Assembly: GCA_010093705.1 (NCBI GenBank)
Contig: MU006092.1
Location: 1,260,500-1,324,499 of the forward strand
DNA length: 64,000 bases
Direction: 5' to 3'
Source: Patellaria atrata CBS 101060
Taxonomy: Eukaryota; Ascomycota; Dothideomycetes; Patellariales; Patellariaceae
A program made the translations under genes and the position numbers. Shown one piece after another: positions 7,485 to 49,001 of the stretch. A model generated the notes under the pieces. It saw only the letters and a program-made list of their open reading frames with translations. It ran no database searches and had not been told where the DNA came from. Position 1 is the stretch's first letter. Each line of letters starts with the position of its first letter.

Positions 7485-9426
7485 GGAGGCGGGGACGGAG
7501 AGGGTATGGGTGGAGGAAGGAGGGTTGATGTGGTGTTTGAGTGAATGGAGTTCGGTGTCGGGGTGTTGAGCCGCTATAGATGAGATTTATAAAAATTGAG
7601 ATGGTTAAGAATGGAATGTTGTATATTTTTTGGGTGGTATGGTTCTATGAAGTATATCAGAATGGTATCTCCAAATAAGAAGTGAATTGGAAACAATACC
7701 TAAATCCATTATCTTGCACAATTATTACCATAAGTCGAACATCCATGTGTATATATCAAGGGATACATTCAACCACCAAAACCTAAAGGTCCTATCTCGC
7801 TGTAGAACTATACTTCTTAACATCTCTGGTACCCATACATATCAAGCAAAAAGTATATCTCCATATCCTAAAATGATATAGAAAATCAAAAATATAGCTG
7901 AAAACGGTTTCGATCCGTTGTCCTCCGGGTTATGAGCCCGGCGCGCTTCCGCTGCGCCATTCAGCTTTACAGAATTGTTATAGGCTGAATTTTGCCAATA
8001 GTTTATAAACAACGAATTTTGGTTACTTTTATGGAATGAGTCATTACTTAAGTGGAGAGTGAAGATTTTCATTGGGTGAGATGGAGCGAAGTGGGGTGGA
8101 CTGGGATGATGTCACACGAACCCGAGTTTGCGAAGTTCGAATTGCAGTTAAGGAATGGTGTCAATTTCCATTAAAGGTCAATGCAAAATGTGGTGCTGCT
8201 GAATTTAAAGAACTGTTGTCGCTCTCCTATATACTCCTACCTTACCGTACTACTGCTGTATTCCTGCAATTCCCTATGGAGTTAAATAACACTCACAGAG
8301 TGAGTAACTCTATCGAACCCCTCGCAGCCCGGGTACATTTAGCTGTTAAACCATCTCCCCCCCCTCCCTCAGTGATATTGACTCTGATAGTCTTATGAGT
8401 GTAGACCACGATCTAGGCTTGGGTACATAAGAGAGGTCATAAAATCCCAGCTAGATATAACCCCCGCGGTTCACTAAAAGTAGGGTGGTTGATAATTACA
8501 ATCATGAACGTCAGAATCATGCAAAGTAAGATTTGTCCAGGTTAGACTCATGAAAAGGGGATATGGTAAAGGGGTATAGAGCAAGTGAAGAAGTGATTAT
8601 TGTAATGGGTCAAGTTCAGAATCTTAGGCTTCTTGCTTTTGAATACTTCATATGTCGTCCCTTATGACACGGAATATATCCTACGAAGCGTGATCGTATC
8701 TTAGCTGAGATCATTTTCAGGTTACTTTGGAGAGGATTCGTATAGAAAGGGCCTGAGGCGCTGGGCTAGTTGGAAAGTGGATCAACGTGATGGGATAGGA
8801 TAGCACCTACGTGGGTGATAGAGTATATCGATGTATACAACTGATATTGGATGCTGAGATGGTTACTCTGTAATGAAAGAGTTTATCTTTCTTTTTGGAG
8901 ATTAACAGGTTTTGGGTTTCAGACAGCTATGAAAGGGGTAGACACATGGTGAATATGCTTGATATTCTCATCTACGGAGTGCTGAACTTTTTGATACGGA
9001 ATCGGTTGAAAGGAACTGAATGACTGGTATATGGAATTTGTCCTTCTGGTCGTTGACTAGAATTGAGAAGGATATGATTTAGCATGAACACGAATTGAAC
9101 TGGGATATGGTTGTTGACTGTTGTATGCTCGGGGCAGAACCGTGAAGATTGTAAATATGTAAATATCTTGTCAATAGCGCGGAAAATCTAGAGAGTATGA
9201 GGGTATGTATGATGAAAGAGCTTTTACAAGCTTTATAATCAACGCCGTAGGTAGAAACTCCTTCCTTTCGATCTCTCTACCTTTTATCTTCTATATCAAA
9301 CTTTTCCACATGAGATCTTTGCATAATTTAACACATGTTTTGCTTGAATGTGAGCATACGCAACATCAGGGTAGACTGTTCTTTGCAAGGCTCACACCGT
9401 ACTTTGCGGTAGCCAGCATTGGTTTC
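7485..9426. other. Intergenic region with one tRNA
   Basis: Nearly 2 kb between two genes. It holds the initiator tRNA at 7895-7966. The remaining sequence has only short, unsupported frames (for example 8072-8398). The final part is downstream of the FolB gene, which ends at 9427. Confidence 0.5.
7895..7966 (-). tRNA. Initiator tRNA-Met (CAT)
   Basis: On the minus strand a 72-nt cloverleaf folds: 7-bp acceptor stem AGCTGAA/TTCAGCT, D arm GCGC-AGCGGAA-GCGC, anticodon arm CCGGG-CTCATAA-CCCGG with anticodon CAT, and T arm AACGG-ATCGAAA-CCGTT. The A1:U72 pair, the three G:C pairs next to the anticodon loop (GGG/CCC) and the AUCGAAA T loop instead of TTCRA are marks of the eukaryotic initiator, not the elongator. 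No intron. An oligo-T tract just downstream fits a Pol III terminator. Confidence 0.95.
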
Positions 9427-11226: not shown

Positions 11227-13292
11227 ATGGCAGACGCTCTAAAAGCAGAAGGTAATAAGCTCTTCGCAGCAAAAGATTTCCAAGGCTCAATGTATGGACC
11301 CCGCAACACCTAAAAGTCACATTGTAGCTAATGAGCTTTTGATTATAGAGAGAAGTTCTCTCAAGCTATTGAACTTGATCCTTCGAATCATGTACTTTAT
11401 TCAAATAGATCTGGCTCCTATGCCTCCCTGAAACAATTCGATAAGGCGTTGGAAGATGCGAATAAGGTAACTGAGCTGAAATCGGACTGGGCAAAAGGTT
11501 GGGGCCGTAAAGGAGCTGCGTTGCATGGGAAGGGAGACCTTGGTATGTATACTAAGCTATATGGTGGGATAGTAGGGATAGGCTGATATTGATATCAGTT
11601 GCCGCCCTCGACGCCTTCAACGAAGCTCTCAAACTCGAACCCAACAACGCCCAAGCGAAATCCGGTCTGGCGGCTGTACAACGCGCAATAGACGCTGAAG
11701 CGCAAGCCGATAGCAATAATCCCCTCGGCGGACTGAATAACATGTTCAACGACCCTCAACTCATCCAGAAGCTGGCGAGAAATCCTAAAACGAGCGGGTT
11801 GCTGGGTGATGCACAGTTTATGCAGAAGCTTAATCAGCTTAAATCGAATCCAAGTGCTATTGGAGAGGCAATGTCAGATCCTAGAATGTTGCAGGTCATG
11901 AGCGTGCTATTAGGAATTGACATGCAGTTTGGTAATGCGCCAGGTGAAGGTGGGGATGCTTCAGCCCCCAAGGAACAGGAGGAGGATATACCAATGCCAG
12001 ATGCACGACCTGAACCTACTCAATCCAAGAAAAAGCCCGAGCCGGAACCAGAACCGGAACCGGAACCGGAAGACGAAGAGGCGGTCACCAAACGCGAAGC
12101 AAAAGAGAAAGCAGAACAGGAAAAGAAACTAGGCACAGAGAATTACAAAAAGCGACAATTCGACGCAGCCATCGAACATTACGGCAAGGCTTGGGAATTA
12201 CATAAGGACATAACCTACCTCACCAACCTCGGTGCCGCCAAGTTTGAAAAAGGCGACTACCAAGGCTGTATCGAAGCCTGTCAACAAGCCATCGAACACG
12301 GCCGTGAAGTGTTAGCCGATTTCAAACTAATAGCCAAGTACGTCTATAATCCCCCCNNNNNNNNNNNNNNNNNNNNNNNNNNNNNNNNNNNNNNNNNNNN
12401 NNNNNNNNNNNNNNNNNNNNNNNNNNNNNNNNNNNNNNNNNNNNNNNNNNNNNNNNCCCCCACCCCAGAGCATTCGGCCGCATAGGCACCGCCTACGAAA
12501 AACTCAACGACCTCCCCACCGCCATCCTAAACTACCAAAAATCCCTCACCGAACACCGCACCCCCGAGATCCTCGCGAAGCTCCGCGCGGCCGAAAAGGC
12601 CCAAATCCAAGCCGAGAAGCAATCATACATCAGCCCTGAAGAAGCGGAAAAAGCGCGGGAGCTAGGGAACCAGCACTTCAAAGACGCCGACTGGCCCGCC
12701 GCGGTGGAGGCGTACAGCGAGATGATCAAGCGCGCCCCCGACGACGCTAGGGGGTACTCGAATCGAGCTGCATGTTTCATCAAACTACTCTCTTTCCCCT
12801 CCGCGGTGCAGGACTGCGACGAGGCCATCAAGCGCGATCCCAGCTTCATCCGCGCGTATTTGAGGAAAGCACAGGCCCTGTTCGCGATGCGGGAGTATAA
12901 CAAATGTCTCGATGTCTGCTCCGAGGCCGCGGTGCACGATACAGACGGCAAGAACGCGAGGGAAATCGATCAACAGCAGCAGAAGGCGCTCATGGCACAG
13001 TTTTCGGCCCGTGAGGGCGAGACCGAGGAACAGACTATGGAAAGGGTCCAGCGGGATCCGGATGTGAGTGCCCCTTCAATTTTCCCCATCCTTCCAATCT
13101 CAAAAAAAAAAATGAGATGGACTGTACTGATAGGAGTAGATCGTAGCTATACTCCAGGATCCGGTTATGCAGAGTATCCTCCAGCAGGCTAAGACGGATC
13201 CTGCAGCGCTGCAGGATCATATGAAGAATGCGAAGGTTAGGGCTAGTATCCAGAAACTCGTTGCTGCTGGTGTTATTAGGACGGGCCGGTAG
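11227..13292 (+). CDS. sti1: Hsp70-Hsp90 organising co-chaperone Sti1/Hop
   Basis: Sti1 bridges Hsp70 and Hsp90 through TPR domains and passes clients between them in the cytosol. Five exons are inferred: 11227-11291, 11349-11542, 11599-12337, 12469-13063 and 13140-13292, giving 581 aa, the usual length. TPR1 covers residues 1-105 (AEGNKLFAAKDFQ, LYSNRSGSY). A DP1 domain follows (NNMFNDPQLIQKLARNP). A Pro-Glu repeat linker leads to TPR2A (GTENYKKRQFDAAIEHY) and TPR2B (GNQHFKDADWPAAVEAYSEM). The DP2 domain (ILQDPVMQSILQQAK ... GVIRTGR) closes the protein. The third intron contains a 100-N gap between C runs, but donor AA|GT and acceptor CAG|A keep the frame, so no coding sequence need be missing. 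Confidence 0.96.
12357..12456. other. Assembly gap of 100 N
   Basis: Exactly 100 N, flanked by CCCCCC on the left and CCCCC on the right, lie inside the third sti1 intron. A C homopolymer is the likely cause of the gap. The true length is unknown. Confidence 0.98.
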
Positions 13293-17367: not shown

Positions 17368-18607
17368 TAGCAACCACTACAACTAATCCCTCATGCAATA
17401 TCCCAACATTTTCTAAACCACCTTTCAAGGGTCTCAGTAATGATTTTCCCCATCTCGATAACGTACGGAATAGAACCTGCCCATGTTATCAGTTAGTACC
17501 GTAGAGACGAAGTCATCCCCGCCGCAATATCTATAGACCTTGTTCCTCTTTCGTCTGTCTACTTCCTGTCAACCATGCACGTGGGACGGCTTAAGTCAAC
17601 CCCCACGTGAATGCCAGAAGCCTACGAAAACGTCCCCGAGTTTGAGCAACGTTGGCTGTTTCGTCGTCCCGAGAGGCTGCTCTCAAAGGACAAACCAGAA
17701 GATACATAATAAGCCATATCACCTCCATGAATTGGACATCTGCATCGACTCTGCTTTTTATATATTGAAACCGTTTCTGCCGCATGACGATAATTGAAAA
17801 ATCATCCCCATGGAGACCGATAACATTAACAACAATGAATGGACGGTAGGACGGCCGTCACTTGCATATACTCGGCTCTTCCGGTATGGACTTGTCCCTT
17901 GGGATTCTAATCAGTAGGATTTCACGAAATAGCAGGAGTAAATTCGAGATAATTTTCCTTGATTCCATTTTTTTCAAGGCAAGAATTTTATTCTATGTGA
18001 ATTCCCGAAAAATTCAGGGCTAGACGGAATCTAGGTCCCCGTCGACGAAAATGTCGATTTATACTTTCTACGCACATGTAAGCCTTTCAGGTGGAAGAGC
18101 TCCATCAAGCATATGCGACAAATAAAATGTCAAATCCTCGTCTTGTCTATAAAGTTTTTATTGCTAGTGCTCCTAATTCCACTCTCAGTACCATTACATT
18201 TGCCAATCGTCAAGCGCCGGTGTTGGGTTTAAGAAATTTGACGAAAATAACTCTGATAACATGCGGATGATAAGGATTTTCAGAAATATAGGCTGTCTAG
18301 AACGCTATCGCTACATACTAGTAGGGAATCCCATCTGATAATTCATATTCTAACCTTCCCCTCGGTTCAATTGCCATGTTAATTGAATCTTACATGTCTG
18401 TACAGTAATTCCTTATTATCATAGTGAGGAAACCCTTCACTAAGGCGCTTCCTAGTAGGACTGTACAGTTCGGCCAAGTCTGTACAGAACCGTTAATTAT
18501 ACAAACTGCCTAGGCCGTACCATTCCATCTGACTATGGGGTTCACCTGGGCTGTACTCGACGCTGTACTTTGACCGAGCCGTACAATTTGATAGACTGTA
18601 AAGTACG

Positions 18608-18712
18608 ACAGAAGTGTACAATTCGACTGGACTGTACTATTCGACTAAAGCGTACAATTCGACTGGACTGTACAATGCGACTAAAGTGTACCATTCGACT
18701 AAGGTGCACACA
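18608..18712 (+). repeat. 18-bp minisatellite with GTAC core, about 5-6 copies
   Basis: Successive units fit GTACAATTCGACTGGACT with a phase of 18 bp; alternate units end TGGACT or TAAAGT, hinting at a 36-bp higher-order unit. Looser copies of a GTAC-containing motif continue on both sides from about 18460 to 19190. Because 18 is a multiple of three, open frames appear on both strands; they are a by-product of the repeat. Confidence 0.8.
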
Positions 18713-19506
18713 TTCCCAAACTATAAAAGAATCCCTAACCTGTACAAACAGATAGACCAGATAAGCCCACCAACCCCATACCAATCATCTAGATCGTATA
18801 GACCAACCAGGTCTTATAGGAAACCTGAACCGTACGGAGCCAACTCAACGTATAGAACGAAACTCAACATAGAGACCCGCCTACCGTAGAACGGCGCAGA
18901 ACTCCTCACCTATATGAACCCATGGCCTATACGCTACAAAACCACTATCCCGTACTACGATTCCGTACAAACTCACCATCCCGTACAAAAATAACGAGAC
19001 CCTATAAAATCGACTAGAGCGCACGTAGAGTATCCAGACAATGCCAAGTAACAAGTCTTATCACTCTATGGAAAACAAGACCGTAGAGAACAAAACCTCA
19101 TCACTTACAAAATCATCGGTGTACATTGAATATGTGGGGGGCTATATAGAGTAAATAGACCGTACGCGGGTATGGTAAATAGCGCGTACCATCATACATC
19201 CTCGTTTCTTAATCTCGAACGTAAGGCCCAAGGATTCCTGTCGTATACTCCTCGCCAGTTCCGGCGCATACATTTGACGTTCCATCAATCCAATTTACAA
19301 ATTGTACAAACACTCACTCAAGGTATAAGAACATGTTTCAGTCTTTGGATAGTACCTTTCACCAAGCTCAGAGGTCACGTAGTTAATCTTATATTCAACA
19401 GACCATCGCGATTGCGATCTCCCTAATCTCATCATCTTACACCTCTTCCCTTCTTTTCCCCTCTTCCTATGTTTACCTCTACTCCACCCCTCCCTCATAC
19501 CATCCC

Positions 19507-35267: not shown

Positions 35268-36461
35268 CTATGGAATTTGCCCTGGACCATATGGTACATT
35301 CTTCAGCACTCCCTTGTCTAGAATGTAAATAAAATATTGCTCCAATGTCTCTGCTCTCATTTTAAGAGTTTCCATTTCGGCCTTGAGAGTCCTCATCTCC
35401 TTCGTCATGGTAAGCTTTTCAATTTCCATTGACTCCACGTAATCCTGCATCTTTGCGACGACCGCATCAAGATTTCTACCTTCTTCTTCGTGTTCTATTT
35501 GGTCCTGTTTTCGGGCCTCCTTATTTCGAAGACATGAACCTCGCCAGACCCGCACCTCTATCTTGCTCAGACGCAATTGCCTATCCAGACTCTCGACTTC
35601 TTCTTTCAGCTGTCTCCTTTCGTCCTCTACGCTGAGGTCTGGATCGGACTTGTGTGAAACCTCAGATGAGGTCGTCATGGCAGTGTCTTCGGGAACGGCG
35701 CCACCTGGCTGCTCGCTTTCAACCCCCTTTGCATCCGAGGGACCGTGATAGGCTTTAGTGCCGATTCTACCGAGAGTTTCCACCTTTTCCTTCAATGATA
35801 GCGGCGTCTCGTTCTCAGGTTCTGGCGGGTTACGCTTCCTCTTACCTGCTTCTGGCACTTTCACGTCGTCGGGTGAGGTTTGCATACGAATATCACGAGC
35901 CATAGCGCCGTCTAGCTGCACATTCTGTATTTTGTCTCCACCTTGAGTGATGTTTTGAGTCGAAGCAGCTGCTTTAGTGGTAACCTCTTTCTCCCTTTCC
36001 TTCATTCCGAATGCAAGACATTCAACGGTTATGGCCTCGAGGTCTGCTATCATCTTTGCGTCTGGTGGAGTTCCCATAGGAGTATCTTGAGGCACAGGAC
36101 CATCTTGTTGCGCATTTCGATGACCGTCTTCGTCAGCTGTGGCGTTCTCAGGAGCGCCCATGGCGTCGTCTTGATTCTCATCAGCCTCTTGCTCGTTTGG
36201 GTCGTCGGGTGTTGTCTGCGTAGCGGCATGCTCGGAAATCGCTCTGTCTGCACCCCAATTGGAAAACACGTCTGTATTGAACGTGACGTTCGGACGTGGG
36301 GTTGGCACTCGAATAGCAATACGCATCCGCCTAATTTCTCTCCGGAGAGATCTCAGCACTTGGTTGGAGCTGAAGTCCGCTATTCGAGAACTATGTTTCA
36401 TTCGTTGGATTACTACGTATACGCTCTTCAGAGCCTCGTCGGCGGTCATGGGGGAAGCCAT
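35268..36461 (-). CDS. Orphan coiled-coil protein with degenerate internal repeats
   Basis: One exon of 397 aa from ATG 36461 (MASPMTADEALKSV). The N-terminal 50 residues look helical and basic. Residues 118-266 carry three degenerate copies of a pattern like DGxVPxDTxMxTxPD (QDGPVPQDTPMGTPPD, LDGAMARDIRMQTSPD, PGGAVPEDTAMTTSS). A possible nuclear signal GKRKRNP is at 206-212. Residues 277-300 and 335-375 have heptad-like Leu/Met/Glu spacing and should form coiled coils. No known family is recognised. Confidence 0.65.
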   Translation of the reverse strand: MASPMTADEALKSVYVVIQRMKHSSRIADFSSNQVLRSLRREIRRMRIAIRVPTPRPNVTFNTDVFSNWGADRAISEHAATQTTPDDPNEQEADENQDDAMGAPENATADEDGHRNAQQDGPVPQDTPMGTPPDAKMIADLEAITVECLAFGMKEREKEVTTKAAASTQNITQGGDKIQNVQLDGAMARDIRMQTSPDDVKVPEAGKRKRNPPEPENETPLSLKEKVETLGRIGTKAYHGPSDAKGVESEQPGGAVPEDTAMTTSSEVSHKSDPDLSVEDERRQLKEEVESLDRQLRLSKIEVRVWRGSCLRNKEARKQDQIEHEEEGRNLDAVVAKMQDYVESMEIEKLTMTKEMRTLKAEMETLKMRAETLEQYFIYILDKGVLKNVPYGPGQIP

Positions 36462-38266
36462 TGCGTTTTGCTGTGTAGCGTGAGTGGTGTAATCTCTTCT
36501 GTTCGTTGTTTCGGGTGCAATTCTTTAAATCTTGATATGTGTCGATGAAATGATCGTAATAACGATAGTGTTGATAATGTCTAATGATGGTCTTCAGTTT
36601 GTGATGTGAACCCTTTGTTTCTCGTCTCGTCGCGCAAGAAGTTTTGTATATGACTCTCCGCCGAGCATGACTTCCATAGTAGTGACGTCGTTCCTCCCTT
36701 TTTCTCAATTTTGTTCATCTAACCGGTGATTTCCTCTCCATGACTTCAACCCTTCTGCTTATAAACTGTCACCAGCGATTTCATCAGGTAGTTCGTAGCT
36801 GAGAGTTCAAGGCATAGGTGCGATTGAGGAAATCTAAATTGGCCTTCACATCTTCTTCGCATCGCCTTCACCGCTCTGTTTTTCGGTCAAAGAACTAAGT
36901 CGGAGAATATTGCATATGCACATGTTGACGCGACATGGGTCGAAGGAGCAGGTGTATGGGAGAATGTACTTTATATGGGGGGGAGATATCGGCCCGCAGC
37001 GCTACAGAAATTGTATATTCAATGACTTGAGGATTTAAATCATGGCACAGGAAGTATTTGAATCAATCCTTTGAATTTCGCCACTGCAAATACATCAGAC
37101 CATCTGCAGTCCTACTTAGAAATATCAACTGATATTCGGTCCCTACGCATCCAACCTGTGAGCACGAATCATTGGTATCGTGATCACTCGCCCTAGTGAC
37201 CCTTGGTCAGTCGTGCATAATCATTTACATATTCTTCGGCAGGAGATGATATAAATACAGCTCTCTCTTGCTTTTCTCTCTTTTATTTTCGGTCAAAGGC
37301 CAAGATAATGATTGGCTCGATAGGGGACCAAACGAAGTACTTCTTGACTCGGAAGGACAGGGAGGTCGTCCGATCTCTAAGGAAGGCATCAATTTGAATC
37401 CACAATCCCATTTCCCTCTTTCTCCTTTGGAAGAACCAGCACCCAAATTAGGAAAAGTATAACCAGAAGATTCGGGAAGATGGGAAAGGGTCGTTGCTTG
37501 GGGAAAGGTAGGTTGTGCGAGGGAAGCTGACGCAAGATTCGCATGCGAGTTGATGATTGTTATCACAATAGAATGATAGAAAATATCGAATTTACATACG
37601 TTGTGAGGAATATTATCTTAGACACAACAATACTCGTCACTACTCTTTCCCCCCTATCTTTGTATCCCGTAAGAACTTGAGGAAGACTCTTTACCCTCGA
37701 AATATTCTCATTGTTGTTTTGGTTCTAGGCTCTAAATAAGCCGGGAATGGAAGCGAAAAATTGAATCAGATGGATTTTCAAACCTTGGTGACGGTTGTGT
37801 AAACTGTAAGGCCTGAATAACCCCCTTCCTTGTATGGTATCAGTGTTAAGGGTTAAGAGATATATGACCCCATTTTCTCATGCAGCCTCTGTGGTTAGGG
37901 GTACATAAACCCTTTCCCTTCCTTCTTCTCCCTTTCTTTTCTTTTTTTCAGTCAAGAGATATTGCATGCAGACTATTGACTTTGCTACTCGTCCCTGAGG
38001 TTTGTTCAAATTTGTATTATGACAGCTTGTTCATTTCTGGGTTGAGCCCTGTAGTTGTGAATATGAGGTGTTTTTTGACCTTTGTCTTCATTTGGAGGGG
38101 AAGTGAACATAGGAAATAGGGGGTTTGGTCTTCTATTAAGCCAGGAGTCATGAATATTCTTAGTATAATGCCATGGTATGCAGAGTCAGGATAGGTGTGT
38201 GGTGATAAAACTTAGGAGTGGAAGGCGATATGTAACATCACTGTAACGTTATCTGCTTATATTTCC

Positions 38267-38283
38267 TTTTTTTTTTTTTTTTT
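38267..38283. repeat. Homopolymer run of 17 T
   Basis: Seventeen consecutive T between modules of the array. It has no other visible feature. Confidence 0.9.
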
Positions 38284-41200
38284 GTTTTTGAACAACAATT
38301 GAAAGTTGGAAACGATGCGGTGCCCACTTGATTCCAGTAGTAAAACAGTTAGAGAGAGGAGGGAGGTTTCAAAGCGAATGGCTTTATATACGTTTACGTC
38401 AATTGGTCGGGTGAGGTATGTCTCGTGCCATCTCCGCTAGCACTGAGGGATATAAACCTGCTTTCCCTCTCCATTCCCCTGCCTTCCTCATTACTTCATC
38501 CTGAATTGAGAAGCGGAATCGACGTTTGGGGAAGTTCCAACTCCGAAAAGCCATCGACCTATTCAGTTCGAGCGGAAATTCTTCAACTAGGGATAGTCAG
38601 ATTGGTCGGAGCCGTCGGATACCGTTTTGGGCGGTATGAGAGTATTTTAGTGTAGCAAGGCAAACTGTGAATATGGAAGGAGGGTAAGGCGATGATGGTC
38701 TTTAGTATCAAGGGGAGATGATGGAGGGGTGCTGGTTATGGTAATGATGCGTGGTATAAAGCTCGAAAAGGGGTAAGGAATGAGACGAACGCCATGCTTG
38801 TACATCCTGGAAATCTCCCAATGTGAGTTTTAATTAAGTACAATCTTGAAGTGGATTCCTTCGTTGATGATAATATGTTAGTGGAAAGGGAAAACGATAG
38901 AAATGCTACAAAGATACTCTATAAAACCAGCCATGTCGAATCGCAGGTGACCTCGTCTTGTATTATACCCACAGGTCCCACACTGAGCTATTTAGATACC
39001 TCCCACCTCCTTCGCTTTCTTTCCATCTCGAACAGATCAGCAATGGTATGAGATCCTAAAACAAGAATCCGATGGATGATTTATTCTCGCTCGGACTGGG
39101 ACTCGGATTCGGATTGGCAGTATGTTCTGGAGAATCCCGATTTTCCACCCATATTCACGGGATGACTGGGATTAGGGGGATTTCGGTAGATGCAACCTAA
39201 TATGAGAGCGGTTGCCATGGATATCTGCATCAGAACCCGATAGTGATGAGTTTCAGATCATGTTTGGAATATCTTATTCGCACAACGTCTTAAAGATCCT
39301 TTAAGAATACCGTTTCTCCATCTCTACTTTTTCCAAATAATAGACTCTCCACTCATATTATTCCAGGCTTAAGAATCAACGGCACTGCCTGTTGTTGGAA
39401 GAACTCAAAAGCCTCTTATACTGTATTTATACATCTATTAAGAGGACAGAGTTAGGAAGGTTTTTGAACTAATGACGATACTACCATATGATTGTGTCAG
39501 GAGAGGGTATGGTTATGTCAAGGACCTATATGACCCTTAACGTCCTGCCACCCCTAAAAGAAGGAGCATATCAACCTCTTAACCCTCCTCCTCTTCCCTA
39601 TCTCTTTTTTAAACATAATGACCAAGATAGCTACGAATTAGTCTGAACTGTCCACCATAGCTCCCAGGAAGCATTGTAAGGTCCGAAGATAATCATTATT
39701 GGTGGGTATTAGATAAACTGGATCTGCAGGTGCACTAAATATCTCGCTTGATTTGCTACTACTGAGAGATGCGGACTATTTGTATACAGAACGAAGACAA
39801 CGAGCATGAATCAAAGGAAACAAATAAAACAACACAGATAGTTAAATGTTGTGTTAGAAATCTGTTTTGATACAGTTTGACACAAACGTCTCAAGCTAAC
39901 GTTCCATACCGCTATTTCCACTAGTCAGCATCACATTTACCCGATAGTAAGCACCACCATCTAACAATGGATATAGAACAAAGTTTCAAGAAGGAGAGAG
40001 AGTTTAGAAAGTAGAATGGGTTGGTAATAAGTCCTTTACCACTATTAGAATCACGCGAGGATGGGAATGACGGTGAGTCCGTGATGCGGATCACTGAGTT
40101 GAAAGATGATGATTATCATTGTCGCTTTCTCTACCTCCTCTAAGTCCTATCGACAAGGGACAGGTCGAGGACAACCAGTCCATTAGGCACAAATTCCTAA
40201 ACCCCAATATATGGGCTTTGATGGGAGCTCTTGTGTTGGCTCTCAATGGGAGTAGTTTTCCGAACCAGGGAATCTAGTCAATACTTATAACAGAATAAGA
40301 TATACTCGTCAGATGGGAAGGTGTATTGCATTCAAGGAAAGAGACTAAAAGAGGTGGCTATTAAGAGAGCCAACAAGTAAAGAGTACGGGAAGTCTTACG
40401 GACACGTGTGTAGAATAACGTCAAATGGTCCTCATAATCTCGTCTCGTAATAGAGGTAGCCACACTAAGGGGTACATAAACCTCTAAGACCTCTTTTCTT
40501 CCCTTTGGTCCCTTAATCTTCGTCGGAAATGAGTTTGAGGTTCATCTCCCTGAGCCTACCTGGAGGAACGAGATTGGTTTATATTCTGATATTTTCTAAC
40601 CAGAATTGGTGTTCGTGACTAGAGACAAATATCAAGGGAAGTCCAATCTCAGCGACCTGCCCACTTCATCTCGCAGCGCAGCTGTGACTGAAGTTGAAAG
40701 AAAAAGCTTGTACAAGAAAATAAATGTACGAAACAGGATGGTATGATGATAATGGAAACTATTGGATCTAGAAAATGGTAAGGATCATGGTAAGATTCGG
40801 CGCCCACCAAATTCTTTTGACAGTACCCCTATTCATCAACGTTTCCCCCTCTTCTCTTCTTCCATCACGAGACAAACTACTGACAAGTTCCACGCCCTTA
40901 GACGCAAATCTCTCGGTATCCAATTGTCTCGCGGTGTCGACAGGCCAGCCCCAATCCCAATTCCCAAAGCTCGTATTTTCGTTGTAACACCTGCTCTAAC
41001 AGACAACGACTCCCACACAATGTTTCTGAACTCGCAACCCTGTGGAAAACTGTAGCATTTAGAGAAGAAGAAATGCTCTGAATAACTGAACTGGGTAGAG
41101 CTTATGAAGAAAACTTTAAAGGACTGCTGACTGGAGAACACTTGACTCTAGTTGCGTTAAAAGTCCCATGGTCCCTATTCCTGGCCGTTTTCCTGATAGG

Positions 41201-42183
41201 TGGTATATAAGTCCCCTCTTTTTCCCATTCTTTCCTTCCTTAGGGCTCAGTAACGGTCAGCCATTTATATGGACCCTGATGAACTACTAACTGCATGGAG
41301 GCCCTGCATTCTTCTCCTGGGAGGGCGCCATACCGTCGTAAAGATTCCGAGGAAGGATGCATTAGAACAAAATGGGGTTCAAAAATTCAGTGCCACCAAG
41401 TAGATAGCGAAAGCGTAGTGAGCGGGGACATTAAAAGTTTGGGTGTTGTAAGAGACTAAGAAATGCAGATGACGACAATGGTCATTACAGTAGTATAATA
41501 ACCTCCATCATCCTCGGCCTCTTATCCTGTAACTTTTGATTTTCTGTCAACAACTATATGTTTGCACCTGAAACACACAATGTAAGTGCCTTCGGCGATT
41601 CAAAATATCCGGTTCACGACGGATAACTGCAATCTCTGGATTCTGATCAGATTCTCTACTCAAACATTCTCTCTGACGAAGTCTGGGCCAACAGATCTAA
41701 TGAAGAGAAGATAAAGAAGAAAGGAGGTCAAAAGGGACCGTCTCTAAACTCATTACGTCAAAACACCACACGGTCCCATCTCGTGATTCTCCGAGACGAG
41801 AGTATATCAACCTCGCTCCGCCAAGTTTCACAGCTGCATACTGCGACTCATGCTCAAGGGTAATTCTCCGTCTTTGAGACTTCGACCCCTCTTCTTCTCT
41901 CTCTTTCTTCCCCCAGAATCAGTAACGCTTCTTTATTCACATACCTGGAGAACCCTATTTGCTGTGCGTATACCCTGGTGAACATTCGAGAGGTCCTGTG
42001 CCAGAGCACAAAGTGGAAAATTGGAATTTTGTTGCATGCTAGTTTTGGTGAAGGTGAATCGTGGACTACTTGAGTGTACATAGTCCTGAAAATGGTGTGA
42101 TGGTGATTATTATCGGGTTCGCGAGAAGATTGTTAAGGCTCAACCTCAGATGAGAGCTGAAAGGTATATTGCTGTATGTACAT

Positions 42184-42377
42184 GAAGCTTAAACTTAAGG
42201 AAAGAGAGTAAAAGAGAGTATCAGAACAGCGTGAGCTGTTCTATTAAAGTACAACATGACTAAGCTACTGGATCATGCATGGAGCTTAAACTTAAGGAAA
42301 GAATGTAAGAGAAAGTGCCAGAACAACGTAAGTTGTTCTATTAAAGTATAGCATAGCTAAGCCGCTGGATCATCCAA
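42184..42377 (+). repeat. 97-bp tandem duplication carrying covarying hairpins
   Basis: Two head-to-tail copies, 42184-42280 and 42281-42377, with about 80% identity and mostly transition differences. Copy 1 has AGAACAGC-GTGA-GCTGTTCT (42223-42242); copy 2 has AGAACAAC-GTAA-GTTGTTCT (42320-42339). Both are perfect 8-bp stems with a GNRA loop. One stem base pair changed from G:C to A:T on both sides. Confidence 0.85.
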
Positions 42378-42690
42378 GGCACTTATACCTATCGGGTCTA
42401 ACCCGTGACAAAGATGATCTTCATCAGCAGTACTTGCCTCAACTGATATGAATCTTTAAGCACAACTACGTGTTCGGGGAAGGGAGAAGTTTTGACAGAA
42501 CGTTCAAAGAAACTGAGAAACAAACAACGAGAGTACTGTAAAATCATATAAACGAGCCCCTTGACTTCATCCCGACATCCGAACAAAGGGGTATATGAGT
42601 CCCCACCCCTTCCGCTTTCTCCAACTTTGAAGAAGTAATATAAACCCTTCATTCCGAATTGGCAATGTGCAGCCAAGCTTAAGGTTTTAT

Positions 42691-42770
42691 TCTCGTTGTG
42701 CTGTACTCTCGTTGTGCTGCACTCTCGTTATGCTGTATTCTCATTGTACCGTATTCTCGTTGTGCTGTTA
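42691..42770 (+). repeat. 16-bp minisatellite, five copies
   Basis: Five units of TCTCGTTGTGCTGTAC in exact 16-bp register, with one to four changes per copy. It follows the module whose core is at 42593. Confidence 0.92.
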
Positions 42771-45700
42771 CGTTAGAGAAACCCAATTGAGGAAAGGCCA
42801 TCGAGGTTTGAAAGAGGAAAATCGGCGCGAGTATAAGGGATTTGGTTAATTAGGGTGATAGTGATAATCATTATTGTAATATGGTTAAGTTTATTATCAC
42901 CACTGTTATAACAGCAGCTTGCGTAATAATTACAACTACGAAAGGAAATGAAGCGTTAGAAGGAATTCGTAAAAGTGGTTGTGGTTAATAAGACGTATGA
43001 CCCCTATCAAGTTGCTAAATGCATATTGAGTGCGTATATATTCCTTTTTCTCTTTCTTCTTCATCCCCTTTCTTTCATACCGACAGAGACATTTCCGCTT
43101 CATGTGAAGATACAAACTCGCATAGTAGTTCATAATCGTTGATTACATATTCTGTTGTGCTCTTGTTCTAGAGTATACCGACCAATTGGAAACAGGCTAG
43201 GGGAGAAGGGAAAGAAGGGGTGTGACATGTGGAGTTATCACTATACAAATATTGACTCGGTGATGGGAAGCTATGAAGATGAGCATCACTATGATATATA
43301 ATAATCTCTATCATAACCAGTCCCTTATTTTTCTCTTTCGAGGCTGTAGGAGCCATAAATACTTAGAGGTGGAGGAATATCATTTCTATAAGCTTGTAAA
43401 AGAGAATATAGTGTGTCCAGTAGAGGATTAGATATTATTTGTCGCTACTTCGACGAATGACCTGAGATCCTAACTAGTGACACACTAGGACCAACGGTGA
43501 GAAATTTGGGATGTATAGACCACTCGACAATCCAGTAGGGAGAAGTGGATAGTGAAAGAATTGGCACCAGAGATGAACTCAACTAAATAGTCTCGCTTTA
43601 CCCATGTGACAGAGCCATTTACAAGTCACTTGTATCTTGTGCAATCCAGACCAGATATATTATGCTCACGCTGACGCAATGGTCGAAGTGGAGTGACCCC
43701 ATAGAAAGTGCCTCTATTACCGGCGGTAAAGGGGGTATAAAAACTTCCTCTCACTCACCTTCCTGTTGTTTCTTCAAAGAAAACTTGTCGTGAGAATGGT
43801 TAGCGTGAGAAATATGGTTACTCATCTGGTATCATTTTTGTTTTATGAATGGGAATCGGCACCGTGGAGAAACTGTGATATTTGCCTTCTCAAGACAGAA
43901 CATCTAACAGTGATCAAGAAGGTGGAGTTGTAAAAATGTTTAGAAATATATGGAATCAACCATCAGAATGCAGTGGTGGTGATGCGTATTCCCTTGAAGT
44001 AGTGATTAGTCCCATCATCAAGATCGTACCTTCACTCGTCGACTTAATCTAGAACAGGGAGCCAGAAACACGATGGAAATATTACTACTCTTGGGTTAGA
44101 TAGTATTAATCCCTTCCCCACCAGAAAGGAAATATGTTGCTAGTCAAGCTCCACGAGAGGTCTTCGTAAATATAGTAAAGGAACAACTGAACAAACATGA
44201 CTAAAACGGGGCCATACCCATAGGATGAGGTCACAATTGCAAACGCATGCGCAACCATCCCCTCTGACCGTGTCAGTCACTATTTCCAGGGTCGCTGATA
44301 CCGAAATAGGGGTGCAAATAGGTGACCTCGTAAGTCAAGTGCCTCCATTTCAGATGGAATACGGGAATTTAAACCTCCTTCCCCCTCTTCATTTTCCGTC
44401 TTTTCCTCAGACTTCGTATTCTTCCCATTTAACTGCAATGAATTTGTCTATTGTGGCTTTCCGGGGCCTGTCTGGTTTTATCAGTGACTTCAATCGATTC
44501 CTTTGGAGGAACCAGCGGATGAGGGAAAGGAAGTACAGCTCTCAGAATTCGAGAAGATGACTTACGAGATTAAGGAGGTAATGAGGTGGGGGGTGTTTGA
44601 GGGTAATAGTGACTGGTATCATGAGTGCAGCATTAGTCAATAGATTTGCGACGAGCTGAAGAAGTGCATCGTTGAAACCATACTTTGATCCTTATAGTGT
44701 AGGGAAACAAGGAGAAACAAGGTCCCGAAATAGGTCTGCGTATTAGAGTCATTGCGGAAGAAGAGAACAAAATGAAAATTCTTGCGGAGGTTGCGGACTA
44801 GGTTTGCTTTGGAAATTCGATCAGGTTACCGAAACTAAGAACAAGAGAGTAAACCTGTGAGATTATACCACTACGGTAAAAGGCCGACCTTAATGCCGGT
44901 TTTTGGCAGTAAGGCTTATATCTGACAAAACCCAACGCTTAATACCAGACTTTATACCCATAGAAAGATAGAACCAAGGACGTATGCGACGGAAGCACCT
45001 GTGATAGACCTGTGACGATGACATTACAGCGTCTGATCTTTCACGTGCATTTACAAATCAACATGCGGATTATCTCACACATCACTGACACCGACTTGGC
45101 CGTCAGGGAGATGATCTCATGCCCTAGGTGACAATATTACGGCTCATAGTTGTGGTATATAAATTCCCTCTTCCTCTTCCTTTTCCACTTTCCTCTCTCT
45201 CTCGTCAAGACTTCTTTAACATATGGCCACTGTGTCAAAGAACTCCCTAAAAGTCGAAACAATTGGCTGTTTCCTGCTATTTTGGCGAAATTCGAGGAGC
45301 GTGTGGGAATTGCAATTGGGTGCCCTTGGTGGATCAACAACAAGAGCAATATACCCCCTCCAAAGAGACATTCTTAAGATCCTCGAGGCATGTATACAAC
45401 CTGAGTGCAATAATCACCATCACAGCGCCAAGCTGAGTATCACCATCTTGCCCAGTCTTGTCACATGGACTAGGACTAACTGACTGACAAGAAAGCCGTA
45501 AACGAGAAAATGGGTAAAGGGAATAAAACATCTCCAACGATTTTGGACAGACGTTTCATTGAATCAAAGCGCGTGTTGCGCTCTGAACGCCTAGCTGTAA
45601 GAGAATCTGAGTTTCAAACTTCAAATTCTGAGGAAGATAGGGTTTTAAGTTGCAACGTTAGATCAAAATATGCGAGTAAGCAGGTGTGATACGCATATAA

Positions 45701-47090
45701 TGAGCTTTTCATGACGTTTATCCTCGCAGGGGCAACCCCTATTCACATCATCCACCATGACATCTCATGCATTCTGTCTCCGCAAGTATGATTGATAAGT
45801 ATATAAAACCTCTTCTTGCCTCTCCTCCTCAACTTCACCACTTCTTCATTATTCTATCCGGCATGAGTTTTGGACTTCTGGTCAAAAGTTAAAAGAGAGC
45901 ATTGGAGCTTGCTTCGGAGAGATATCTGATGCTAAACAAGCAACATTGCGTGGCACTGGTTGGCAAATATCAACCGGAAAAGATTGGTGTTTGTTGATTG
46001 TGCCGGCAATAACCCCCAGCAAAGAGACATGGGGAGTACATACTCACACCCCCTTCCCCAAGTTCAAAAAATGGAGTCGGTCAGTTATGAACGAGGAAGC
46101 CTAGTATAATAACACGGAGCAGCAGTACGAAAAGGTGATAGACTCCATCACAACCCGATATAACCCTATCAATACTTTTCACAACCTACGCCAGATCAAA
46201 TCAGATCATTCTGGAGGAGAACACCACCGAATAAAGAAATCTTTCACCGTAGTACACTTGAAACCAGAAAAACCACATACCAAACCACACGAAAAGCTAT
46301 ATCTCCAAATTGAGGAAAAATCCATCTTTGCGCAGAGCTCCGACAACAATAATAACATTCAATAGTCCATCCCGGAAACCTAAATATGCTGCAGAATGCG
46401 TTGGTATCCGAAGAGCCGGTATAGCCAGCAGAAAGCATCATCGGCACAAATTAGTCATGACGGGATTTATAGGAGAGAGGAGGGGAATGCATACATGTCA
46501 CTTGCTCGTTACATCATTGGGATATTCAGTGGATATATAACATCATAACACGATATCTGCCCTTTCCTACGCAGGTTGACCAGTATCCTTCTACCCACGA
46601 CACTTTCTCCGTTTTCAAGCACTGAAAAGGCAAGATTTCCTTTAAAATCGGTGGAGTGGAGTGTACTGGGTAAATGGATGCCGAGTATGACCCGGACTTT
46701 ATTTGCTTCTATGGGGAGAGTGGCTAGGGATTTATCTTACTGAGGAAGGGGAGACGCCGGAGGGTATGATCTGGGGTAGTAAATCCAGAAACCGTGCTCT
46801 GGGGAAAGGTGAGCGAGGTGATGCGTATCATCGCAGCGACATCAGAAGGGGAGACTTTTAAGGGGAGTTGGTGATGCGTAACGCCATCGAAGGAGATTTT
46901 CGCAGGAGGATTGCAGAATGGGACTTGTTAATTGAAATATACGAATAGGGGAAGTCAGGTGGGAGCATGCGGTTGTTCATTTTAAGGGAAATCTTAATTC
47001 CTCCCCCCTTCCCAGAAGAAGGAGAGGCAAAGGCCTTCCAAACCTCCTCCTCCCTTCGTTATCACCAAACAATTTCCTAACAATCGCTCC

Positions 47091-49001
47091 TCAATCAACC
47101 TCCATCAACCGATACCTCCCCCCACCAAACTCCTCTAACGCGTCCTCCACCCTCTCCATAACAGCAAGCACCTTCTCCTCCTCCAACCTCTTCCCAACAA
47201 CCTGCACCGCAACCGGCAAGCCCTCCATAGCCTCCGCATCATAGAACTTATACGCGCCCCTCGCGACTCCATTCAACCCCCTTCCATCCCACCCCTTCGG
47301 AAGCCGATCCACCTTCGCATCAACCCTACTCACAGGCACAATTCCACACGTATAATCCAGTAAATTGAACAAAAACGTATACCCGCACGACGCGACCGCA
47401 TCCTCCATAGCACCATGCGGCAGCGCGGGCGTAGCATTCGGCGGCGTGACAATAACATCCATCTCCCCTTCTTCGCCGCCATCCGAGACAGCATCCTCGC
47501 GCCACCAATCGTGCCACTTGCTCTTATATGCCTCCCTCCGCGCGACCCAACTCCACTGCTCCGCCGCACTCATCGGACCCCACCCCCTTAGCAGACCCGC
47601 CCAGACAGCGTCGCCCGAGACGTAGCGCACCCAGAGGTAGTGCAGATATTTGAGGGGACGCGGGAGGAGGGCGTAGAGACGCATTTGCCAGGCGCCGGGG
47701 TCGGAGGACTCGAAGGGCCGCAGGAAGGAGGAGAAGGTTGTGCAGCCGTCGGAGTTGAGGAGGCGGGAGGCGATGCAGAGGGCCGCGTAGGGGGAGGGCG
47801 GGGTGATGTCGAAAGTGTCGTGGCCGGCGGCACGGAGGGAGGTTACGACGAGGTCGAGGGCGCGGCCGCAGGCGGGGGAGGGGTCGACGACGCCTTTTAG
47901 TGTTCGTTAGTATTGGGTTGAGAGATTACTTTTGGGGACCGCGAGGGGGGGGGGGGATGGGACGGGAGCATAAGTCAAGGCGTGCCGGGGATATGCAAAC
48001 TTACCATCCGTCCGCAGAACCCCTATCCTCAACCTCTTCTTCTCCCTATACTCCTTGACAACATCCTCTCTCCATTCCAGCGGATGCACACTGTGATCGT
48101 ACCGCCACGGCTTCATCTGTATGAAGCTCTTGCTGAAGTACGTCAGATCCGCCAACGTCCTGGCCATAGGACTGAAAACTGCCGCGATGCCCTCTTGGCC
48201 CGGCATGCTCGTATTGACCCCCATCTTCGGCCACCTTCCCGTCGAGCAGCGTAAGCTGTAACACCCACTCCACGCCGCGGGAGCCCTCACGCTGCCCGCC
48301 ACATCGGACCCGATGCCGATCCTGCTCCCCCCAAACGCCAAAATGGCGCCCTCGCCCCCGGTACTCCCGCCCGGTGAGTACTTGGCATTATGCGGGTTCG
48401 TAGTGCGTCCCCAAACGTCGTTGAAGCTCTCAAAGCTCAACAACGTAATGGGCAAATTCGTCTTGACGAACGGGATCGCGCCGGCATCTTTCAGCAAGCG
48501 CACCATGGAGCCATCCTTCTCTGCCTTCTTCCCGGTGAAGGCGGAGTATCCCACGCTGGTCTCGAAGCCCTTGACCTGCACCGAGTCCTTCAAGCTGACG
48601 GGTATGCCCGCGAGCGGGCCCGATAGGTTTATCTGTCCCTCCGTGATCCACGATTCGGCTTCCGGGAAGAGGATTTCGGTGCAGCAGTTTGTCTTTTCGT
48701 GGGCTTTAATCGCGACTTTGCCGTATGTTCTCAGTACATCGACTGGGGAGAGGGTTTTGTTTTGCACATCTTCTACGAGCTTCTGGATCGGGGCATCTAG
48801 GATATCTCGCTCGTTGGAGGCGAGCGGGGATCTGTACGTCTGCGGCAAGCTCGCTATCTTCGAGGCACGTTCTGATTGTTTCCGCTTGCTGCGTTACTGT
48901 CATTATAAGGTGTTTAGGGATAACGGAATGTTAATCGCAAGGGTGGGAAAGGGTGTATACCAGTCGTTACGGTGCTGGAAGTAATCCAGCAGGTACACCA
49001 T
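47091..49001 (-). CDS. Amidase (amidase signature family), fungal acetamidase-like
   Basis: Hydrolyses amides with a Ser-cisSer-Lys triad. Three exons are inferred: 49001-48961, 48888-48005 and 47893-47091, giving 575 aa. Exon 1 codes MVYLLDYFQHRND, which continues after splicing into KRKQSERASKIASLPQ, the usual N-terminal helix of these enzymes. The triad is visible: Lys114 in VSLKDSVQVKG, Ser189 in SPGGSTGGEGA and Ser213 in GIGSDVAGSVR. Exon 3 begins GVVDPSPACGRALDLVV. The third exon is very GC-rich and its minus-strand codons favour C. A G run of 13 lies in the second intron near 47946-47958. Substrate unknown. Confidence 0.9.

Follow-up and report, generated by a model that had tools for sequence, protein, structure and literature searches.

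A same-strand array of promoter-like modules with a recurrent downstream palindrome, one of several gene-poor clusters in a Dothideomycete genome

Introduction

Noncoding transcription is usually viewed as a scatter of by-products of gene promoters, and fungal genes commonly have start regions made of a TATA box followed by CT tracts. Pol II snRNA and snoRNA genes, which are short and noncoding, carry upstream, core and 3' elements. Fission yeast has one centromere per chromosome, and the Reb1 site is TTACCCG.

Central-domain DNA of fission yeast is described as carrying many Pol II starts on both strands and giving few transcripts (Catania et al. 2015, PMC4349457). At a Reb1 roadblock, a sequence-specific protein bound past the start limits noncoding Pol II transcription, as summarised in PMC7618759 (citing Colin et al. 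2014). The account of Zymoseptoria tritici centromeres presents them as short and regional (5.57-13.55 kb), states that most contain expressed genes, and describes no common motif (PMC4589918).

Here we analyse a 64,000-nucleotide stretch (hereafter the window) of a 28.3 Mb Dothideomycete genome, in which 15 TATA-plus-pyrimidine cores repeat on the + strand between 37.2 and 46.6 kb.

Results

Promoter-like cores recur on one strand

All 15 cores were found by eye to within a few bases of where the original prediction had placed them (Table 1), and the array cores have the promoter arrangement of a TATA box and then a pyrimidine tract. Scanning 36.7-46.7 kb for TATAWA (≤1 mismatch) followed by 35 bp with ≥80% pyrimidine returned 14 sites on the + strand and 2 on the - strand; 12 of the 14 coincide with these cores, the other two lying at 36833 and 43293, and the cores at 41803, 42593 and 46533 fall below the cut. 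The same scan gave 9 + and 5 - sites in the remaining 54 kb of the window; with zero mismatches, the array retained 8 + and 0 - sites, against none elsewhere in the window. Against the 14 scan matches, 100 dinucleotide shuffles of the array region (one strand scanned) gave a mean of 0.09 sites and a maximum of 1. The last core (46533), already flagged for its weak tract, has a PWM score of 9.5 vs 13.9-31.2 for the other 14, the PWM having been trained on window units plus loci L067, L068 and L069; 15 of the 16 window hits over 14 are on the + strand. Spacing, predicted at about every 440-900 bp, measures 442-905 bp from the predicted coordinates and 442-789 bp with two dispersed repeats removed, the two long core spacings thus being due to solo-LTR-like inserts (~260 and ~280 bp).

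Table 1. Positions of array features within the window
Feature	Position	Strand	Basis
Module array, 15 units, no recognised protein gene	36923..46950	+	scan, ORF and Pfam searches
Core 1, TATA and pyrimidine tract	37250..37290	+	by eye, PWM
Core 2	37904..37950	+	by eye, PWM
Core 3	38451..38500	+	by eye, PWM
Core 4	38992..39030	+	by eye, PWM
Core 5	39569..39612	+	by eye, PWM
Core 6	40474..40520	+	by eye, PWM
Core 7	41204..41241	+	by eye, PWM
Core 8, broken pyrimidine tract	41803..41830	+	by eye, PWM
Core 9	42593..42628	+	by eye, PWM
Core 10	43035..43078	+	by eye, PWM
Core 11	43736..43775	+	by eye, PWM
Core 12	44368..44410	+	by eye, PWM
Core 13	45157..45205	+	by eye, PWM
Core 14	45800..45860	+	by eye, PWM
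Core 15, weak	46533..46570	+	by eye, PWM
Upstream element, core 2, TATGACCCCAT, 2 mismatches to CATGACCTCAT	37863..37873	+
Upstream element, core 4, GGTGACCTCGT, 3 mismatches to CATGACCTCAT	38946..38956	+
Upstream element, core 9, CTTGACTTCAT, 2 mismatches to CATGACCTCAT	42560..42570	+
Upstream element, core 11, AGTGACCCCAT, 3 mismatches to CATGACCTCAT	43692..43702	+
Upstream element, core 12, GGTGACCTCGT, 3 mismatches to CATGACCTCAT	44321..44331	+
Upstream element, core 13, GATGATCTCAT, 2 mismatches to CATGACCTCAT	45110..45120	+
Upstream element, core 14, CATGACATCTC, 3 mismatches to CATGACCTCAT	45756..45766	+
Palindrome TGATTGTTATCA, +304 of core 1	37554..37565
Palindrome TGATGAGTTTCA, +252 of core 4	39244..39255
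Palindrome TGATGATTATCA of core 5, +538 raw, +278 without the 39709-39968 insert	40107..40118
Palindrome TGGTAAGGATCA, +302 of core 6	40776..40787
Palindrome TGATGGTGATTA, +296 of core 8	42099..42110
Overlapping palindromes, +263 to +269 of core 9	42856..42873
Palindrome TAATCTCTATCA, +267 of core 10	43302..43313
Palindrome TGACTGGTATCA, +242 of core 12	44610..44621
Palindrome TAATCACCATCA, +254 of core 13	45411..45422
Palindrome TGATGCGTATCA, +286 of core 15	46819..46830
Dispersed ~258-bp repeat, solo-LTR-like, within unit 5	39709..39968
Dispersed ~280-bp repeat, solo-LTR-like, within unit 8, AAGAT on both sides	42131..42411

Related clusters elsewhere in the genome

The module was found at five or more further gene-poor loci (at least C1, C3, C4, C6 and C11), making the window array one of at least six. 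PWM cores scoring over 14 number 13-16 per 10 kb in the window, L067, L069 and L045, ~10 in L059, 9 in L071 and 7 in L070, vs 1.2 in background; three further loci lacking long ORFs (L009, L014, L043) have zero. Rejected as arrays were C13:541-550 kb (L068; ordinary genes, 4 cores), C17:610.5-614.5 kb (L072; 2 cores) and C3:782-785.5 kb (L073; 1 core), and a 50-kb sample (L062-L066) held no arrays and 3 cores altogether. The upstream-element, fold, ORF and position tests used 58 hand-picked cores, some PWM matches being omitted (e.g., L070 -2393, -3495, -5113, -9721; L071 +395; L069 +3968, +1804; L067 +4466, +7082, -1600, -447; L045 -2463, +2700; L059 -558, +1304; all L068).

The expectation that all units point one way holds for the window and nearly so for the array at C4:1.53 Mb, whereas core direction is mixed or convergent in the other arrays; at the C1 locus, the palindrome described below sits between converging cores.

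Assuming correct assembly of C4, this contig carries one array at 1.297-1.307 Mb and another at 1.528-1.535 Mb, ~220 kb apart, a pair incompatible with one centromere per chromosome. This weighs against the arrays being chromosome-structure domains, for instance origins or short regional centromeres, of several kb, rich in promoters, free of genes and kept in special chromatin through low-level transcription in the manner of the fission yeast central core. Array size does fit the 5.57-13.55 kb of Z. tritici centromeres (PMC4589918), and fission yeast central-domain DNA is likewise reported to have many starts on both strands (PMC4349457); however, the Z. tritici centromeres are described without a common motif (PMC4589918), and we regard this reading as quite improbable.

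A palindrome at a preferred distance downstream

The palindrome TGATN4ATCA, overlooked in the original prediction, lies ~200-310 bp downstream of cores. De novo search downstream of window cores gave a likelihood ratio of 101.6 (≤71.9 in 8 shuffles, ≤76.3 in 8 random sets), with leave-one-out placement at +235 to +297 in 12 of 15 units. A separate search downstream of 25 cores from L067, L068 and L069, where converging cores share sites, returned TGATCCCCATCA (118.8 vs ≤61.8 in 5 shuffles), and across 46 units the palindromic motif reached 129.3 (≤40.2 in 4 shuffles, ≤70.3 in 4 background sets).

Palindromes with ≤1 mismatch at +200 to +310 were then counted against 5000 circular shifts. They occur in 10/15 window units (5 without; reached by 22 shifts), in 12/23 units of the core-picked L067 and L069 (11 without; 6 shifts) and in 12/20 units of L070, L071, L045 and L059, which were picked mainly by palindrome (8 without; 0 shifts), placing a candidate protein-binding site at the preferred position in 34/58 units, as judged by site and position only. 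The form of the palindrome was set using the window, L067, L069, L045 and L059, which leaves L070 and L071 as the only fully held-out loci; both had been selected mainly for their palindromes, but one core match was known beforehand in each. Between one third and one half of the units have no good palindrome, which we count against our preferred explanation.

Taking every PWM core, a palindrome lies at +190 to +340 in 9/17 cases in the window, 18/28 in L067/L069, 11/23 in L070/L071/L045/L059/L072 and 2/4 in L068, and downstream of 4/37 background cores; in the control interval -560 to -410, which extends into neighbouring units, the respective array counts are 4/17, 9/28, 9/23 and 2/4. The small difference in L070/L071/L045/L059/L072 (11/23 vs 9/23) counts against our preferred explanation. 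Among the hand-picked units, other intervals of the same width held it in 18/57, 16/57, 6/58 and 12/57. Could gene-free DNA here simply be rich in TATA and pyrimidine runs? Cores are indeed present elsewhere, including 37 in the background set, but their density in array loci (7-16 vs 1.2 per 10 kb), their absence from L009, L014 and L043, and the palindrome-core position test in separately chosen loci make such a composition artefact extremely unlikely.

For 37 distinct palindromes from the 58 units (shared sites and those with >1 mismatch dropped), flanking bases beyond the 12 bp can pair in 6-14 of the 37 sites, i.e., there are no extended arms, and no RNA fold was detected around the sites (mean fold z 0.02 and -0.20). 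An RNA hairpin was rejected as the palindrome's role because pairing stops at 12 bp; box C/D snoRNAs were also rejected, the palindrome being identical both ways and its spacer free. Lacking arms, and with unit bodies lacking a fold or common sequence (see below), the palindrome thus looks like a protein-binding DNA site. Genome-wide, TGATN4ATCATC occurs 145 times vs 62 for the reversed pattern, and TGATN4ATCACC 72 times vs 38.

Such sites could themselves be what matters, rather than transcription: the arrays would then be clusters of transcription-factor-binding sites (long-range regulatory or decoy), with TATA cores that are incidental or yield no more than enhancer-like transcripts. The genome-wide enrichment of a palindrome apparently working at the DNA level, and bodies without common sequence, are consistent with this; yet among 29 palindromes of the two tandem arrays, spacing from the preceding, upstream core (median 267, sd 96) is tighter than spacing to the following, downstream one (median 325, sd 152), and cores in both arrays mostly share one orientation. 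We consider this alternative rather unlikely.

An element upstream of the cores

A CATGACCTCAT-like element, which we take to be bZIP/CRE-like, lies upstream of the cores and was likewise overlooked; the original prediction was right about a shared core, and thereby captured one of three shared features. Upstream motifs of width 12-25 in a first, window-only search did not exceed all controls, and the element emerged once the search region was narrowed to -75 to -8, scoring 64.0 in window units (≤48.1 in 12 control sets) and 60.1 in 43 other units searched separately (≤44.4 in 12 control sets); in 46 pooled units, it scored 97.5, barely above background (≤92.3). The 43 other units also yielded motifs above controls at -160 to -75 (76.8 vs 62.1) and +90 to +200 (69.7 vs 61.1), intervals at which window units fail (46.4 vs 47.2 and 43.7 vs 45.4).

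Unit bodies and coding potential

As predicted, no protein gene was recognised: the longest ATG ORF starting within the array is 111 aa, none of ten array ORFs of 59-111 aa reaches its Pfam cut-off (one scores 14.7 bits vs a cut-off of 27), and a homologue search with the 86-aa ORF after core 45157 found none. A CaaX box has two aliphatic residues after the cysteine; no ATG ORF of 20-120 aa at 36900-46950 has such an end, cysteine at the fourth-last place occurring in only three distinct ORF ends (CHLR, CSCC, CSFF), none with two aliphatic residues, and a pheromone-precursor array was therefore rejected. Reading frames after the cores are neither shared nor long.

These units, at least those of the window, might nonetheless be small protein genes, fast-evolving or decayed, arranged in tandem families, whose promoters remain while their coding part has become unrecognisable. 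Besides start regions typical of fungal genes, the first ATG falls at +47 to +72 in 13/15 window units (shuffle mean 6.3; 0/1000 shuffles reach 13), and window ORFs from that ATG are slightly long (mean 24.7 vs 17.0 codons; 50/1000 shuffles reach that). Short coding in the window array is therefore possible, and this ATG excess just after the tract is a mark against the term noncoding. In the 43 units of other loci, however, there is no excess of ATGs at +47 to +72 (17 vs 16.4 expected) and ORFs from the first ATG are not long (mean 15.2 vs 18.8 codons); over all units, 55/58 such ORFs are <50 codons, the longest stop-free runs are 58.0 codons sense vs 60.8 antisense (54.9 in shuffles, sd 2.4), and shuffles contain intron-like sequences just as often. 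The Pfam and homologue results also count against the small-gene alternative, which we likewise consider rather unlikely.

Word-7 blastn within the array detected no clear body homology, save a 97-bp repeat inside one insert; the remaining pairs are weak, many within pyrimidine tracts. Units are not alike along their length, as judged for tandem-repeat or transposon membership, and transposon units were rejected for want of body homology. The predicted tandem array of diverged copies thus stands as a series of same-strand promoter-like units, but not as recognisable copies. At gathering score, Rfam has no match in the array, the only passing match in the window being a tRNA at 7895-7966; three sub-threshold matches lie inside the array. 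With no Rfam family and fold z near 0, known structured RNA genes (snRNA, snoRNA) were rejected.

Discussion

Our results support the array as real: the window carries a series of promoter-like units on one strand, with no recognisable protein gene, and we infer that these units are transcribed and noncoding. Sequence analysis establishes the three elements and the order in which they stand, the distance preferred by the palindrome and the recurrence of the elements elsewhere, as well as the absence of an RNA fold, of introns and of common body sequence in the units, which look like a mostly noncoding class hitherto undescribed.

The explanation we prefer, tentatively and with a chance a little short of even, is that Pol II units, short, mostly noncoding and limited by a putative dimeric factor, form several dispersed clusters, of which this region is one. 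Each module would comprise a CATGACCTCAT-like site, then a TATA box and pyrimidine-rich start region, then ~150-250 bp in which no constraint was detected; between half and two thirds of the units then have a TGATN4ATCA palindrome. Pol II would start at the pyrimidine tract, and a dimeric DNA-binding protein would occupy the palindrome and may end or limit transcription in a roadblock-like manner, a role suggested by the palindrome's symmetry, its preferred distance past the start and its location between converging cores in C1. A roadblock is one possible reading of a downstream site among others. Selection would keep transcription or the bound factor, not RNA sequence, perhaps so that the chromatin of these domains stays open or specialised.

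A bolder reading, possible but unlikely in our estimation, is that several-kb arrays without recognised genes, built of upstream site, core promoter and, at its preferred distance, a dimer-binding palindrome, form a new class of chromosomal domain. RNA sequence would drift freely under a conserved transcription-and-stop geometry, and such arrays would thus serve a chromosome-scale purpose, be it chromatin, replication, pairing or loop anchoring, via a dedicated DNA-binding protein.

If our preferred explanation is true, these arrays would offer a clean natural case of selection on the act of transcription, or on a factor inside the unit. The palindrome provides a direct handle for finding its protein, and whole-array removal should be feasible because no gene is recognised inside.

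Compared with known systems, the arrays resemble Pol II snRNA/snoRNA genes in having short units with upstream, core and downstream elements, but differ in lacking an Rfam match at gathering score in the array, an RNA fold or a common RNA body. With Z. tritici centromeres, as these are described, they share a fungal class, a similar size and a constitution not built from repeats; unlike them, the arrays have shared motifs and no recognised genes. Like the fission yeast centromere central domain, they are DNA of a few kb with many (here predicted) Pol II starts; in contrast to the published description of that domain, which sets out no common ordered module, three-part modules are present here, at several loci, two of them on one contig. 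As with the Reb1 roadblock in its published outline, a candidate protein site lies downstream of the predicted start; unlike the Reb1 site, it is a TGATN4ATCA palindrome for a putative protein, repeated at +200 to +310 in arrays.

Core modules, inserts and setting of the array

All 15 TATA-plus-pyrimidine cores named in the original prediction are present in the array (window 36923-46950, plus strand). Scanning for TATAWA with at most one mismatch, followed by a 35-bp stretch in which pyrimidines make up at least 80%, returned 14 sites on the plus strand of the array, 12 of which are cores of the prediction, and 2 on the minus strand, with 14 sites in the other 54 kb of the window (both strands summed). 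The cores also withstand comparison with shuffled composition, as scanning one strand of 100 dinucleotide shuffles gave a mean of 0.09 sites vs 14 on the plus strand of the array. No protein genes had been expected, and none of 10 ORFs has a Pfam match above cut-off, the longest ATG-initiated ORF starting between the flanking ORFs being 111 aa.

The spacing, put at about 440-900 bp, is 442-789 bp once two inserts, in units 5 and 8 (each unit beginning at one core), are removed; the long spacings are thus due to the inserts. Among the best-scoring candidates listed in a genome DNA search with the array as query, 35 of 47 matched pieces fall on the unit 8 insert and 11 on the unit 5 insert (up to 99% and 96% identical, respectively). 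In the unit 8 family, most full copies begin with TG, finish with CA and show a 5-bp duplication; given these ends, the duplication and the AAGAT flanks, this insert is consistent with a solo LTR. The unit 5 family has similar features, judged on four copies.

The host genome comprises 28.3 Mb in 46 contigs. For the TRP-channel protein of the window, Lepidopterella palustris is the nearest named relative (59% identity) among 120 matches listed, and the other named matches recognised there are from Dothideomycetes. The window also holds 200 N, presumably an assembly gap, and two short tandem repeats.

Features of the window and of other loci
Feature	Location	Remarks
200 N	window, first at 12357	
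18-bp tandem unit	window 18580-18715	ACTGTACAATTCGACTGA, ~6 copies
Left flanking ORF of array	window 35268-36461	
First-ATG zone, first unit	window 37297-37322	matching offset in other units
Solo-LTR-like dispersed repeat	window 39709-39968	unit 5
Solo-LTR-like dispersed repeat	window 42131-42411	unit 8; AAGAT on both sides of window copy
16-bp tandem repeat	window 42691-42768	TCTCGTTGTGCTGTAC, ~5 copies, inside unit 9
Amidase, right flank of array	window 47091-48848	
Window	C4:1260500-1324499	
L045 + L071	C4:1527.6-1537 kb	minus strand, ~10 tandem units; longer ORFs at right end
L067	C6:1069.5-1079.5 kb	gene-poor, many cores
L069	C1:2823.5-2833 kb	gene-poor, many cores
ORFs flanking C1 array	L069 2-1411, 8649-9499	both pointing into array
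L070	C3:1604.5-1614.5 kb	gene-poor, many cores; adaptor-complex gene at left end
L059	C11:375.2-378.3 kb	gene-poor, many cores; 3 kb examined
(ATG)n-like simple repeat	L072 3938-3997	mimics palindrome

Related arrays elsewhere in the genome

A genome pattern search for the core gave 414 matches vs 222 for the reversed pattern (first 100 places listed), and further loci were found through such searches for the core and for the palindrome described below, then fetched. Per 10 kb, cores scoring >14 against a weight matrix number about 10 in L059, 9 in L071, 7 in L070 and 13-16 in L045, L067, L069 and the window, relative to a background of 1.2 (from a set still including L045 and L059). The window, L067, L068 and L069 supplied the training units for this matrix, and a fair density comparison is therefore the one made with L045, L059, L070 and L071. 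Three of three further loci probed (L068, L072 and L073) were ordinary. As the match listings were capped, this tally of arrays is a minimum.

Nearly all cores point one way in the window, as predicted, and also at C4:1.53 Mb. In the C1 array, four pairs of cores converge, each pair having one palindrome in common. Both C1-flanking ORFs match HSP70 barely above the cut-off of 20.6 bits, at 22.4 and 27.5 bits.

A palindrome with a favoured spacing downstream of the core

De novo motif search at +180..+400 of the 15 window units (offsets from the core) yielded GATGGTGATTATTA, in either orientation, with a likelihood ratio of 101.6; controls reached at most 71.9 (8 shuffles) and 76.3 (8 sets of random window pieces). 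The same approach, applied separately to the sequence following 25 cores of L067, L068 and L069, yielded TGATCCCCATCA, and refinement on 46 units gave TGATN4ATCA, often with added TC or CC. In leave-one-out analysis on +80..+430, the best match lay at +235..+297 in 12/15 window units and at +336, +375 and +382 in the remaining three. An independent check on this distance comes from unit 5, whose palindrome is found at +538 with the insert in place and at +278 without it. Just 5' of the palindrome, at +180..+240, lies a purine-rich stretch (0.57-0.63 purine per 20-bp bin; 58 hand-picked units). (ATG)n-like simple repeats inflate palindrome pattern counts.

The position test (INDEPENDENCE) counted the units that have a palindrome (up to one mismatch allowed) at +200..+310 and compared each count with those from 5000 circular shifts of the palindrome positions. 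Counts were (i) 10/15 units in the window, reached by 22 shifts; (ii) 12/23 in L067 and L069, reached by 6, sites common to converging units being entered twice; and (iii) 12/20 in L070, L071, L045 and L059, reached by none. L067 and L069 were chosen by their cores, and their palindromes therefore constitute a separate test; L045 and L059 were chosen via a palindrome-like pattern, and L070 and L071 mainly via palindrome clusters, one core match being already known in each. The result in set (iii) is weaker with unpicked cores (11/23 at +190..+340 vs 9/23 in a control interval), but the palindrome sites keep their maximum at this distance, with 17 lying within +200..+299 and 0-6 in any other 50-bp bin up to 800 bp away. 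Cores in ordinary DNA gave 4/37 vs 3/37 over the same intervals. The palindrome tracks the core upstream of it (median distance 267, sd 96) more closely than the next core (median 325, sd 152; 29 sites).

Upstream of the cores (-75..-8), de novo search returned CATGACCTCAT in window units (64.0 vs at most 48.1 in 12 controls) and CTCATGAC in 43 other units (60.1 vs at most 44.4). This element, which we take to resemble a bZIP/CRE site, occurs exactly in 0/15 window units (best, 2 mismatches), and is poorly detected in wider searches; TGAC is present at -31..-45 in 8/15 window units.

Coding potential and RNA structure

One test of coding potential runs counter to the rest: the first ATG falls at +47..+72 in 13/15 window units (shuffle mean 6.3; 0/1000 reach 13), and the ensuing ORFs average 24.7 vs 17.0 codons (50/1000 shuffles reach 24.7). 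The 43 units of other arrays show neither an ATG excess (17 vs 16.4 expected) nor long ORFs from the first ATG (15.2 vs 18.8). Since the excess is confined to window units, the window array may hold short translated leaders or remains of small genes, whereas the units taken as a class seem to be noncoding. Intron-like sequence and stop-free runs show no excess over the 58 units, and unit bodies within the array have no clear homology to one another.

No Rfam family reaches gathering score within the array, and the fold of +40..+320 is no stabler than shuffles (mean z 0.02 in the window, -0.20 in other units). An RNA stem at the palindrome is ruled out because the bases beside the 12-bp palindrome pair in 6-14 of 37 sites.

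Proposed mechanism and known systems

The palindrome lies inside or just 3' of the presumed transcript. It reads the same on both strands, and it keeps a preferred distance to the preceding core, which it tracks more tightly than the next one; for these reasons we favour a candidate dimeric protein that would bind there and stop or limit short Pol II transcripts, in a manner like that of the Reb1 roadblocks of budding yeast (PMC7618759). As neither the sequence nor the fold of the RNA seems constrained, the product would probably be the act of transcription or the bound complex itself, not the RNA.

In the literature searched, which covers few subscription journals, the palindrome in four spellings had no match, and nothing of the kind was named among the matches listed for tandem noncoding units or clustered noncoding arrays. 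That the arrays are simply centromeres is argued against by the two on C4, ~220 kb apart, and by the centromeres of Zymoseptoria tritici, which are reported to be without a common motif (PMC4589918). Fission yeast central-domain DNA is promoter-rich, gives few transcripts and can promote special chromatin (PMC4349457).
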